Assembly: GCF_026210795.1 (NCBI RefSeq)
Contig: NC_089440.1
Span: forward strand, 2,728,001-2,792,000
DNA from: Rhizophagus irregularis
Lineage: Eukaryota; Glomeromycota; Glomeromycetes; Glomerales; Glomeraceae
DNA: 64,000 nucleotides
Direction of reading: 5' to 3'
Shown here piece after piece: positions 47,140-54,790 of the stretch; position 1 is the stretch's first letter; each line of letters begins with the position of its first letter. The translations under genes were made by a program, and so were the position numbers. The notes under the pieces were generated by a model. It did no database searches. It was given only the letters and a program-made list of their open reading frames with translations, and was not told the DNA's origin.

Positions 47140-48822
47140 ATGCACAACTTTAAAGAAATGATTTTTAATTTGATTTATAACGTAATAAGATTATGGTGTT
47201 CCCCTATACTCTTCGTCTGCAGACCAATATTAGATTTTATAGATTTTTTAATAGCGGAGTCAAAATCATCAAATAATTCCAATAATAAAGGTCGGACCGC
47301 ATCTTTTAATTCTTTATTAAATAATGATGGTTATTCATCATCGGTTCGTCATGGAAAAAAGAGAAGAAGGCAACAGTTTCATAATAATTCCTCTTATAAT
47401 AATGGTGGTAATATTAGAAGACTTACTGAAGAACAACGTCGTAAATTGATAAATAATCCGATGAGAATTCAATCGAGAAAAAATTCAATAATTTCTTCAA
47501 CAAAATTATCTACAAAACGTATCTCATCCGGTATATCAGTTACGAATAAATCAAAATATCTTATGATTAAAACCACTATACATCATTTACCAATAGAATT
47601 ATTATTATGTATATTTGAACAATTACCTAATAGGAAAGATTTCTATAATTGTTTATTCGTTTGTAAATCATGGAATTATATGGTAACCCCTTTCCTATAT
47701 AAATCTCTTCAAATTTGTCCTTTACCTCAAAATTTTCCAATTGAAAAATTTGGTCATTATATAAAAGTACTCGATTTTTCTTCATCAAGTTACGATAAGG
47801 TAGATAAAGTAACTGATGTTTTAATTCAAACCATAGCTATGGCTTGTCCTCGTTTAAGGTGTATTAATCTCAATGGTTGTAAACATTTATCTGATTCTTC
47901 TTTAGAAGCTATTTCAAAAAATTCTTGTTCTTCCTCTTTATTATCAATTAATTTATCTGGTTGTAGAAAGATTACTGATATTGGTTTAAAACATTTATCA
48001 AAATCTTGTCATCATCTCACTTCATTAAATGTGGCTGATTGTGGTAAAATATCTGATAAAGGTGTAATATATATAGCGAAAGGTTGTCCCGGATTAAGAC
48101 AAATAAGATTATCCGATTGTCCAAGAGTAACAGATCAATCTATTGAAATTTTGGTACAAAATTGTACTAAATTATGTTGGTTAGATATTGCAAGAATAGG
48201 TAGAATTACTGATTCTTCCGTAAGAATTATAGCAAATTCTTGTAAAGAAAATTTGGAACGTTTAAATTTAGCGAGACCTTCTCCTTTAGAAGTTCTTTAT
48301 TCTTCCGCTCTCGCTAGTCCTTCACTTCTACCTATTACATATATTAATGATGATATTTCCTTTGATGGTGATGGTGATTATCATGACGTGATCAGGAGTG
48401 TTAGGAGTGATACTGAAATAACTGATGAATCAATAGCTTTATTAACAAGACAATGTCCGAATTTACAATTATTAGATTTATCTTACATGAATTCCATAAC
48501 AAATTATTCGATAGAATCTATAGCAAATAATAGTTTTTCTTTGGTTTGTTTAACTATAATAGGTTGTAGATTTGTAACATGCGATTCATTAAGATATTTG
48601 GCTCAATTAAGACGTAAATCTGGTCATTTAGGTTGTATAACTATGGGTGATGCTGCTGGAATAACTGAAAAAGATATTGAAAGTATTACAAATGAACCGG
48701 AAGGTCTTTTGTCCGGTTGGCAGAAAAGTTCTGTAGATGAAGATAGTTTAAAAGAAATTTTAGGCGGTGTTAGTTGGGATTATACATGTTGCCGAAATAT
48801 TTCGGCTATTTCGCCCACATGA
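47140..48822 (+). CDS. F-box/LRR protein of the AMN1/GRR1 type, C-terminus altered by a MITE
   Basis: Single exon, 560 residues. The N-terminus is hydrophobic (residues 5-38) and followed by a basic N/S-rich linker. The F-box lies at about 149-200: HHLPIELLLCIFEQLPNRKDFYN...CKSWNYMVTPFLY. From about residue 220 come cysteine-type LRRs of about 26 residues, e.g. CPRLRCINLNGCKHLSDSSL, SINLSGCRKITDIGLKHLSKSC and LRQIRLSDCPRVTDQSI. One acidic insert near 390-425 breaks the array. The family acts as substrate receptor of SCF ubiquitin ligases; AMN1 acts in mitotic exit in yeast, but a specific role here is unproven. Residues 548-560 are encoded by the MITE starting at 48781. Without it the frame would end D-V-G-N-W-stop at 49207-49209 (552 residues). 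Confidence 0.9.
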   Translation: MHNFKEMIFNLIYNVIRLWCSPILFVCRPILDFIDFLIAESKSSNNSNNKGRTASFNSLLNNDGYSSSVRHGKKRRRQQFHNNSSYNNGGNIRRLTEEQRRKLINNPMRIQSRKNSIISSTKLSTKRISSGISVTNKSKYLMIKTTIHHLPIELLLCIFEQLPNRKDFYNCLFVCKSWNYMVTPFLYKSLQICPLPQNFPIEKFGHYIKVLDFSSSSYDKVDKVTDVLIQTIAMACPRLRCINLNGCKHLSDSSLEAISKNSCSSSLLSINLSGCRKITDIGLKHLSKSCHHLTSLNVADCGKISDKGVIYIAKGCPGLRQIRLSDCPRVTDQSIEILVQNCTKLCWLDIARIGRITDSSVRIIANSCKENLERLNLARPSPLEVLYSSALASPSLLPITYINDDISFDGDGDYHDVIRSVRSDTEITDESIALLTRQCPNLQLLDLSYMNSITNYSIESIANNSFSLVCLTIIGCRFVTCDSLRYLAQLRRKSGHLGCITMGDAAGITEKDIESITNEPEGLLSGWQKSSVDEDSLKEILGGVSWDYTCCRNISAISPT

Positions 48823-49183
48823 CAAACTGGTCAAAGCAAAATCATCTGATTTCATAGATCTGGCTGAAATTAGGCTTCAAATAGGTTAATCCGGGTCTGA
48901 AGAACCTATGAAAGAACTTTTGAGGAATTTCGACCAACTTACATAATTTCGGCAGGGCTCTGGAATTTCGGACAACCTATATTTAATATATGGCCAAAAC
49001 TTTAAAGTCCGATTCGAAATTATTACAGATTATGCCGAAATTTTCTGAAGTCTGCTAAAAGTTGCTGCAGATCTGGCCCAAATTATCTGAGGTTTAAAAA
49101 AATTTATTGATATATCTACAAGTAGCTATATTTTGGAGCCGAAATGCGGCCGAAATTGAAAAAAAGTTTCGGCAACATGTATA
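48781..49183. mobile_element. MITE (403 bp) inserted in the last codons of the F-box/LRR gene
   Basis: Perfect 17-bp inverted ends TATACATGTTGCCGAAA at 48781-48797 and 49167-49183 are flanked by GTTGGGAT at 48773-48780 and 49184-49191 (TAGTTGGGAT if two ambiguous bases are counted). The interior holds many CCGAAA/TTTCGG motifs. The 8-bp (or 10-bp) duplication fits hAT or Mutator-like elements. It supplies both the new C-terminal 13 codons and the stop at 48820-48822. Confidence 0.9.
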
Positions 49184-49675
49184 GTTGGGATGATGTGGGT
49201 AATTGGTAATCGGGTAATTGGTAATCTAAAAATATAATCTGTAGTATGTAGATATTATTATAATTTGATTTATTAAAAAAAAAAAAATTTTATTATTTTT
49301 GAACAATTTATTTTTCTGAAAGATTTTTATATCATTTATTATATTAGTCATGAAAAAAAAAAATTTTTTTTTTCTTTTTCTTTTTTTTTTTTGTATATAT
49401 TTTTTAGTATTTATACAGTATTTTTTTTTTTTTTTTTTATGGTCGGACAAAGAAAAAATAAATTCTAATACGCATTATCATACTTTATTTTTATCACGAA
49501 ATATTTACATTAATACTGCGGTTGATTGTTATTGATCATCGAAAAAATTGAATTATATTTTAATGATTTTAATGGTTTATTTATCTTGTTTAATACGGAA
49601 CGTCCGAATTTTATTAATTTCTTTTTTTAAGATAAAGCTTCACCAAAAAGTCATTAATAATAACAACAAAACTAT
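49184..49675. other. Spacer between convergent genes
   Basis: Contains the displaced original 3' end of the F-box/LRR frame (to 49209), then poly(A)/poly(T) tracts. The open frames here on both strands are homopolymer artefacts. Confidence 0.6.
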
Positions 49676-52600: not shown

Positions 52601-54790
52601 GTTCGTTATTAGATACCCTAATAGTATCTATTATCCAAAGTGAATAACTGTCAACCAAAAAATTTTAGGAGACAATAATGATTAATCTCTAAACCGATAA
52701 AAGAAAATATAATAGCTAAAATAAATAAAATTACATTTTGCTTTCTTCGTCTGTAGCCTTTGAGTTTTCTAAATTTTGAAACCCGACGGATAAATTAAAA
52801 ACCATTCCAGCCTTGAATTCTTTTGTACTTTTAGCATTAATAGAATATGCGGATTCTCTAAATTCGATTCCCATCTAAAAAATAAATGAAATAAAAATTG
52901 TTTAATATTATTAAAAACAATCAAAAAGAAAAGAAAAAAAAAAAAAAATTCTTACCCCATGGCCGAGGCTCTTTACAAAATGTGAAACAAGTTCAGGTTT
53001 CTTATTTTTAACAAAATTTATGGCTTTCACGTAAACATCACGAAGTTTTACTCCACTTTTTATATGTTCAACAATACGCCGCTGTAACTCCAACAGAATC
53101 TCATAATTCCTTTCTTGTTCCTAAAATGAGAAACGGTTAGTTATAGAGCAATTACAATTATTTTTGAAGATGCAAGTATCGCATACCTTAGTTGGGTCGA
53201 ACAAAATAGTTCTACCGATGTTCGAACAATATGATTTGTAACGAACACCAAATGAACAAAGAATAGTTCCGGCATGTAACGTTCTGTTATCAGATTCAGC
53301 CGAAGATTTAAAATCATATATACCACCGCTTTGAATTATTGGAGTATAACAAAAATCCGCTCGTGAGAGATCAACCTGGTGTTAATAATGTAAGAAATAA
53401 TATAATTATCATGAATAAAAAATTGTGAAATTTTTTTAGAAAAAAAAAATACACACATCTTGAACTCCTTTTTTAAGGAAAGTATTTTGATCGCTTGTTA
53501 ATATATTATCGATATCTTCAGATAATTTTTCATGAGTGACTTGTTTTTCTTCATCAACGAGGGAAGTCACGACTCCAATGAAATGTTGCATTATCAAAGA
53601 ACTAAGCTTGCCAGCAACTCGGACCGTTTTCTAATATTGAATATTATGGTTATTATATATCTTTACAAGTTCATTCGACTTTTTTTAATCATATTAGAGA
53701 AACCACACATGTTTAAATATCATATTCATATTCGGATTATTGTAACAAATTGTTTAAATACATATCCCTAATCTAATCCGATCCAAACCATCCCAATAAA
53801 CACCACTATGAACTAAAAATTGCAATTTGACATACCAATTCTTCTTCATCCTTAACAGCTAAAACCGATGCGACTCCTGCACTAACATCAACTTCTTCAA
53901 TTTTATCTTTGAAATTTTTATATACTTCCGACCATTCTTGCACAAAATTGCCTTCCTTCAAATCTTTTGGCAATATTCCAAGACGTTTCTAGTGAAGAAA
54001 AAAATGTGATTACATTATCTCTACAGTACCTAATAATAGAGGTAACAATGTAATACCTTTTCTCCTTCGGTTATATAAGTGATAATAGATTCAAAAAGAT
54101 CTCTGTGTTGTGATTGATCCTTTGTATACTTATGAATTTCAACAGATACTTGTTTGTCGCCTTGATTTAATTGCTCCAAAACTTCGGCTATAATAAATTC
54201 GAAAAAAATTTAGTAAATTAACCAATAAAGAACATAATATATATATATATATATAACAACTTATTACCCATTTTTTCCTTAGCAACGAAGTGGAATTTAT
54301 CTTGTGTCAATAAGATTAATGTATCTCTCCATTCATAACCTAATAGCCATGTCTTTTATCAATGTAAAATAAATAAAGAAATTTTGTTTAATGGAACGTT
54401 TTAGCAGGAAAAAATTTTGTTATTTACAAACCTGAATCGCCGTAGATTTTTGATATGGATATTCTTCTAGAAGATCACCGACAATAATAAGTATGGTTTC
54501 AGCGCCTTGGAATTCGTCACTTGCATCTTTACTTTTACTCAACGATTCCTAAGTTAGAAACAAAATTCAACCCTGATCAAACTTTCGCGCGTTTTTTTAA
54601 GCAAGTATTAAAAATTACACTGTGATACACGTTTGTTTTCGTGAATCAAGAAAAAAGCAGAGCGCAAACTAAAAGAGGAACTGCACCAAGTATTTTTCAA
54701 ATACACACGTACCTTCCAAATGGTTTGTAAAATGCGTGCGCGTTTATGAAAGGTTTTAGTGTCTAAAATGAGCTGTTTTTCTTCAGTCAT
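49676..54790 (-). CDS. SPT16: FACT complex subunit SPT16 (about 24 exons)
   Basis: Large subunit of the FACT histone chaperone, which loosens and rebuilds nucleosomes during transcription and replication. Translation starts at 54790-54788 ([20 protein letters not shown]). The aminopeptidase-like N-terminal domain follows ([15 protein letters not shown], then [21 protein letters not shown], then FVKSLGHG, then [13 protein letters not shown]). The middle/dimerisation region has [21 protein letters not shown] and RREATF-type motifs. The PH-like middle domain has the hallmark [17 protein letters not shown] followed by [12 protein letters not shown] and [14 protein letters not shown]. Further on come [20 protein letters not shown], an acidic serine-rich tail ([13 protein letters not shown]...EEESDE) that binds histones, and a basic end KNKKIRR-stop at 49676-49678. 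The exons are separated by short introns. Divergent from the CCHC gene. Confidence 0.95.

Follow-up and report, generated by a model that had tools for sequence, protein, structure and literature searches.

How a conserved F-box/LRR gene of the arbuscular mycorrhizal fungus Rhizophagus irregularis came to its present stop codon and last residues is the question raised by this locus. A preliminary description of the DNA had proposed that a MITE insertion rewrote the C-terminus and stop codon of the gene, that the perfect ends of the element mark a recent event, and that the 3'UTR of the transcript now starts inside a transposon. The window analyzed here is a stretch of 64,000 nucleotides (C12:2728001-2792000) of the R. 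irregularis genome, which was searched as a whole (146,748,485 bases in 32 contigs). Transposon insertions that alter the end of a gene are a well-known phenomenon, and the present insertion is a new instance of this known kind of event, in which a MITE supplies both the stop codon and the C-terminus. No paper on this insertion was found in the open-licence literature, among the matches listed (titles and the beginnings of abstracts). The insertion is a clean, well-bounded case from an arbuscular mycorrhizal fungus, in which a conserved gene has received its stop and C-terminus from a DNA transposon.

The F-box/LRR host gene

The gene product has Pfam matches to F-box-like (PF12937, E = 8.1e-10, residues 147-190) and LRR (PF13516, E = 1.1e-11), with the F-box preceding the leucine-rich repeats as in the GRR1-type layout. 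Its closest solved structure is F-box/LRR-repeat protein 2 (chain 6o60_C, E = 4.4e-42), and the 93% homologue P0002 bears the JGI name "F-box and leucine-rich repeat protein GRR1". The F-box-like and LRR matches are common to this product and the GRR1/FBXL-type proteins, the substrate adaptors of SCF; however, residues 548-560 at the C-terminus of the window allele are transposon-encoded. Among the 78 of 142 first-look candidates that were scored, the genome contains one full-length match to the gene (100%) and no close paralogue. A close paralogue that might compensate was not seen among these scored candidates, the runner-up being partial with an identity of 32%.

Structure of the insertion and the resulting frame

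The element begins at 48781, immediately after codons 546-547 (TGG GAT), and is arranged in the gene as listed in Table 1.

Table 1. Features at the 3' end of the F-box/LRR gene (positions within the window)
Feature	Position	Strand	Remark
F-box/LRR (GRR1-type) gene, present open frame	47140..48822	+	560 codons + TGA; intron not needed
Target-site duplication, left copy GTTGGGAT	48773..48780	+	last 3 bases = codon 547 (GAT)
MITE, 403 bp, without transposase frame	48781..49183	+	
Left terminal inverted repeat, 17 bp, perfect	48781..48797	+	
Element DNA translated as new tail YTCCRNISAISPT, 13 residues	48781..48819	+	
New stop TGA, from element	48820..48822	+	
Right terminal inverted repeat, 17 bp, perfect	49167..49183	+	
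Target-site duplication, right copy GTTGGGAT	49184..49191	+	
Displaced ancestral gene end D-V-G-N-W-stop, 3' of new stop	49192..49209	+	= C-terminus of P0001, P0003 and P0004

The element starts with 17 bases that are the reverse complement of its last 17, with a mismatch at base 18 (T versus C). These terminal inverted repeats (TIRs) are part of a looser inverted repeat of 40 nt with a complementarity of 80%. The two copies of the duplication GTTGGGAT match at 8/8 positions at a length of 8, compared to at most three matches at lengths of 7, 9 and 10. Both the 403-bp element with its 17-bp perfect ends and the duplications at codon 547, as put forward in the preliminary description, were verified in the sequence. 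The same holds for the ancestral frame: removal in silico of the element and one duplication yields 552 codons that end in GVSWDDVGNW, with the old stop at 49207-49209. In its present form, the gene reads 560 codons, of which the last 13 (YTCCRNISAISPT) and the stop derive from the transposon, as had been claimed. The TGA at 48820 is the first stop of this frame, and seven further in-frame stops precede the old one at 49207. Within the MITE, the longest open run is 35 residues (six frames entered from both ends).

An assembly or collapse artefact could be thought to have put a repeat copy into the gene, given that an identical copy of the element lies on another contig. However, a misjoin would not duplicate exactly 8 bp of the gene itself and leave the displaced end of the gene right behind the duplication, and we regard such an artefact as extremely improbable. 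In addition, the old stop codon lies within a perfect 15-bp tandem duplication (GGGTAATTGGTAATC twice) at 49197-49226, and a second copy of the ancestral last codons and stop thus follows immediately 3' of the old stop.

Together, the element and one duplication have a length divisible by three, which favors another explanation, namely that the element acts as a cryptic intron and the ancestral-tailed form is still made. Eight GT..AG pairs (donors scanned at 48700-48821, acceptors at 48860-49299) would give a frame ending in GNMYSWDDVGNW. The earlier statement that the 3'UTR starts inside the transposon, which follows from the open frame as read in the sequence, is qualified by these pairs, which on paper recover the old last residues. 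Yet none of the eight restores the exact ancestral protein, as the element-encoded GNMY stays ahead of SWDDVGNW. Moreover, the donors look weak, none of the eight being GTAAGT or GTATGT by eye, and such pairs may well arise by chance. Splicing of the element is thus very unlikely in our view.

Direction of the change

To place the insertion in order, we read the ends of 13 homologues (P0001-P0013) among the matches listed (120 of 180). Twelve of them were aligned with the window protein (13 rows), whereas P0007, a partial 908-residue model, was read at its end but excluded from the alignments. As the preliminary description had anticipated for orthologues, the insert-free C-terminus SWDDVGNW is present in P0001 of R. 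irregularis, P0003 of R. clarus and P0004 of Glomus cerebriforme; P0002 ends in SWDDVGSW. P0001, the best protein match, has the same length (552 residues) and ending as the empty-site frame, and differs at two of the 552 residues. Residue 26 is V in the window and F in P0001-P0003, whereas residue 287 is T in P0001 and S in the window and P0002-P0004. As the representative of a nine-sequence cluster, P0001 demonstrates at least one R. irregularis sequence without the insert, which is known as protein.

When the window protein and the 12 aligned homologues are compared (13 rows), no column beyond W546 is invariant, whereas W546 itself is. The motif W-D/E-D is found at the tail position in 11 of the 13 homologues read, and the two more distant ones (P0012 and P0013) stop at WDE. 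Beyond this motif the homologues vary: P0005 ends in SR, P0010 has eight additional residues, and P0011 has a longer tail. Homologues ending in the MITE-encoded residues, which were sought as counter-evidence, amount to none of the 13 read. Because P0001, R. clarus and G. cerebriforme share the insert-free end and the new tail is found in no homologue read, the insertion is almost certainly derived, and it is absent from at least one conspecific sequence (P0001).

The opposite order would require an ancestral insertion, with P0001 produced by excision. DNA transposons are capable of excision, although elements of this kind less commonly excise cleanly, without a footprint. The insert-free end common to R. 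clarus and G. cerebriforme and the W-D/E-D motif described above both speak against this order, as does the outgroup test, in which all 13 homologues read are insert-free. The identity of the window copy to another genomic copy points the same way, and we give the excision scenario hardly any probability.

The MITE family in the genome

A genome search with the element returned at least 42 matching stretches, some of which are pieces of one copy. Fifteen copies, including the window's own, are gapless over 403/403 positions at an identity of at least 95%; the window copy is identical to L001 (on C24), and two more copies differ at 2/403 positions. All 15 gapless copies are flanked by 8-bp duplications, 14 of them exact and one at 7/8. 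The TIR pattern, with up to two mismatches, occurs 404 times in the genome (207 + 197), compared to three (1 + 2) for a reversed control pattern, and the element is therefore more than a chance arrangement. Altogether, these elements are short, lack a transposase, carry TIRs and target-site duplications, and exist in many homogeneous copies, as MITEs do.

Duplications were further compared for 25 elements (L001-L025), leaving out L026-L028, for which no pair of ends was found. They match at 8/8 in 19 elements and at 7/8 in three, and at 6/8, 5/8 and 1/8 in L025, L022 and L024, respectively. When the 22 duplications at 7/8 or better were symmetrized, position 2 was T and position 7 was A in 24/44 each, and positions 4-5 were a pyrimidine followed by a purine in 37/44 each. 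This base pattern resembles the target preference of hAT elements. The short elements L021-L025 have TIRs in common with the family and are otherwise little alike; likeness restricted to the TIRs is usual among MITE families served by one transposase.

At 24 copies we looked for uninterrupted frames (80 codons or more) that enter the copy, with introns ignored and ~1.5 kb of flank for each. Such frames run into four copies: that of the window gene, that of a Helitron ORF (L014/L029), L009 and L024, the frames at the last two being short (88 and 51 codons from ATG, respectively). We do not claim that this MITE family is a habitual C-terminus donor. At the Helitron locus (L029:2413-6435, on C14), the MITE copy at C14:919583-919985 splits the Helitron open frame (Helitron_like_N), such that a 912-codon upstream frame stops ~21 residues into the MITE and a 302-codon frame starts behind it. 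On C9 (L048), pieces resembling the family are spread across ~1 kb, from which a clean larger element could not be delimited.

Superfamily and search for an autonomous parent

The window family resembles hAT-type MITEs in its short length (403 bp), lack of a transposase, TIRs and homogeneous copies at many sites, and also in its 8-bp duplications (22 of 25 elements at 7/8 or better). In contrast to the classic hAT end, its TIR begins with TATACATG. The hAT TIR consensus is C/T-A-G/A-N-G, with which the TATAC of this family agrees at positions 1 and 2 and disagrees at positions 3 and 5. We infer the hAT superfamily only from the duplication length and the symmetric target preference, and the MITE is probably mobilized in trans by a hAT-type transposase. 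A curated transposable element library reports hAT families for R. irregularis strains, and its methods assign transposase-free TIR sequences between 50 bp and 1 kb to the MITEs (PMC11075540), a definition that fits the window element. In that paper "MITE" occurs once, as "MITEs" in the Methods, and in its accessible portion, unlike here, an individual MITE family or gene insertion is not described (PMC11075540).

Among the family elements examined, of which L017 is the sole one with transposase pieces, none proved to be an autonomous partner with the same TIRs. This 3838-bp element (L017:1501-5338; C27:2225164-2229001) has the MITE TIRs and an 8-bp duplication (AATTCTGT), and matches DUF659 (E = 9.5e-17) and, weakly and under the cut-off, Dimer_Tnp_hAT (E = 0.03). 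We considered L017 as the autonomous parent, of which the MITE would be an internal deletion, and ruled this out by the own ends of its hAT core. The core has 32 matching stretches, five of which were fetched at greater length (L043-L047, 74-97% identity) and scanned for ends. The scan required exact 8-bp duplications and agreement of the two ends at no fewer than 11 of 14 bases, and also returned AT-rich, chance-looking pairs. L043, L044, L045 and L047 possess a common end TARTGATNCYGGGC, with 13/14 bases matching, inside exact 8-bp duplications, while the same scan gave no such pair in L046. In L017 the TARTGATNCYGGGC end begins at base 35, directly behind MITE base 34, and the opposite end breaks off at a TTTCGCCC repeat. 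As the relatives carry ends of their own, and the same end follows MITE base 34 in L017, this element is, judged from these junctions, a MITE copy with a separate nested hAT element that subsequently underwent a small deletion. The four relatives with the common end are hAT-like elements of 3.2-3.9 kb, and are DNA kin of the transposase-bearing core of L017.

Age of the insertion

Perfect 17-bp ends are found in 12 of the 15 family copies, including the most diverged one, L015, and the perfection of the TIRs is hence without dating value. We therefore dropped this argument of the preliminary description, whereas its conclusion of a recent insertion stands on other grounds. Relative to the majority of the 15 copies, C>T/G>A changes amount to 33 of 420 position-copies at CpG and 20 of 1740 at other C/G positions, in counts that score shared changes once per copy and thus include non-independent events. 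In the interior of L001-L015, such changes are ~7 times more frequent per position-copy at CpG than at other C/G, an excess consistent with cytosine methylation and decay with time. The window copy and four other copies have no C>T/G>A change at CpG, and the window copy differs from the family majority by two transversions, both also present in the identical L001. The insertion looks recent in view of the identical copy, the lack of CpG changes, the exact duplication and the insert-free conspecific sequence, but is not datable in years.

Course of events and predicted effect on the protein

In our reading, the last codons of the gene, which codes for an F-box/LRR ubiquitin-ligase adaptor without a close paralogue, were hit in the lineage of this strain by a non-autonomous DNA transposon, namely a MITE that makes 8-bp target duplications. 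The gene is presumably transcribed, and its protein presumably still works in the SCF complex, in which case the tail change would be near-neutral. Unless polyadenylation takes place within the element, the mRNA would acquire a 3'UTR that contains ~360 nt derived from the MITE. We consider this account as a whole to be highly probable, with a derived insertion being almost certain and a near-neutral protein effect somewhat more likely than not.

The present protein retains residues 1-547 with the F-box and LRRs, loses DVGNW and gains YTCCRNISAISPT. AlphaFold2 models of the insert-free form (P0001) and the present form, predicted from 20 and 21 sequences only, are moderate overall, with a mean pLDDT of 68.9 each and a pTM of 0.59 and 0.61, respectively. 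The two forms are nearly alike in secondary-structure elements. Most LRR blocks have a pLDDT of at least 90, and the final 11 residues are below 50 in both forms. As the models are shallow and their F-box part is also of low confidence, they say little on function. A small protein effect is expected because the F-box/LRR region is untouched, the tail is disordered in the models and W546 is the last invariant residue; we accordingly lean towards a tail swap that is tolerated and near-neutral for the protein. Against this view, the W-D/E-D motif followed by a short tail persists in the Glomeromycotina homologues read, a hint at some constraint on the lost residues. The C-terminus is thus literally rewritten, as first proposed, but the change is small: 13 residues take the place of five, within a stretch of predicted disorder past the last invariant residue.

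Possible effect at the RNA level

Alternatively, the MITE hairpin in the new 3'UTR might cut translation or feed small-RNA silencing, which would make this a knock-down allele of the F-box gene. The MITE RNA is predicted to fold at -113.3 kcal/mol with its ends paired, versus a mean of -83.8 kcal/mol for shuffled sequences (z = -4.6; 0/100 shuffles as good). In rice, a stowaway-like MITE in the 3'UTR of Ghd2 represses translation, mainly via OsDCL3a, and three further MITE-bearing 3'UTRs also repressed a reporter, as far as the accessible part of that report goes (PMC5338036). Both the Ghd2 element and the window MITE, the latter by prediction, lie within the 3' part of the transcript. However, the Ghd2 element resides in the 3'UTR and its repression was measured, whereas the window MITE, known from sequence alone, also provides the stop and the last 13 residues (PMC5338036, in part). 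In R. irregularis, abundant small RNAs arise from evolutionarily young genome regions, according to the portion of the source available (PMC10234402).

Against such an effect, the transcript may end inside the element, at a variant AATATA signal at 48985. AATAAA and ATTAAA are absent from the element and first occur at 49457 and 49272, respectively. An RNA effect could be larger than the protein effect, yet a knock-down allele is only a tentative possibility and we hold to the near-neutral insertion as the preferred reading.

As a conspecific sequence without the insert exists, the MITE is a likely presence/absence marker and offers a natural pair for tests of 3'UTR MITEs in fungi. It is also conceivable, though rather unlikely, that some R. 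irregularis strains carry the MITE and others lack it (or, should this strain be heterokaryotic, some of its nuclei and others), and that two working versions of the SCF adaptor result, which differ in the tail and the 3'UTR hairpin. If true, this would amount to a naturally occurring transposon switch that acts on a conserved ubiquitin-ligase gene and is open to testing.

Downstream of the F-box/LRR gene lies a convergent neighbor on the minus strand, extending from about 49700 to at least 53381. A match to peptidase M24 (E = 4.6e-08) covers 53124-53381 of it, and, judged from its reading frame, this neighbor looks like the histone chaperone SPT16.
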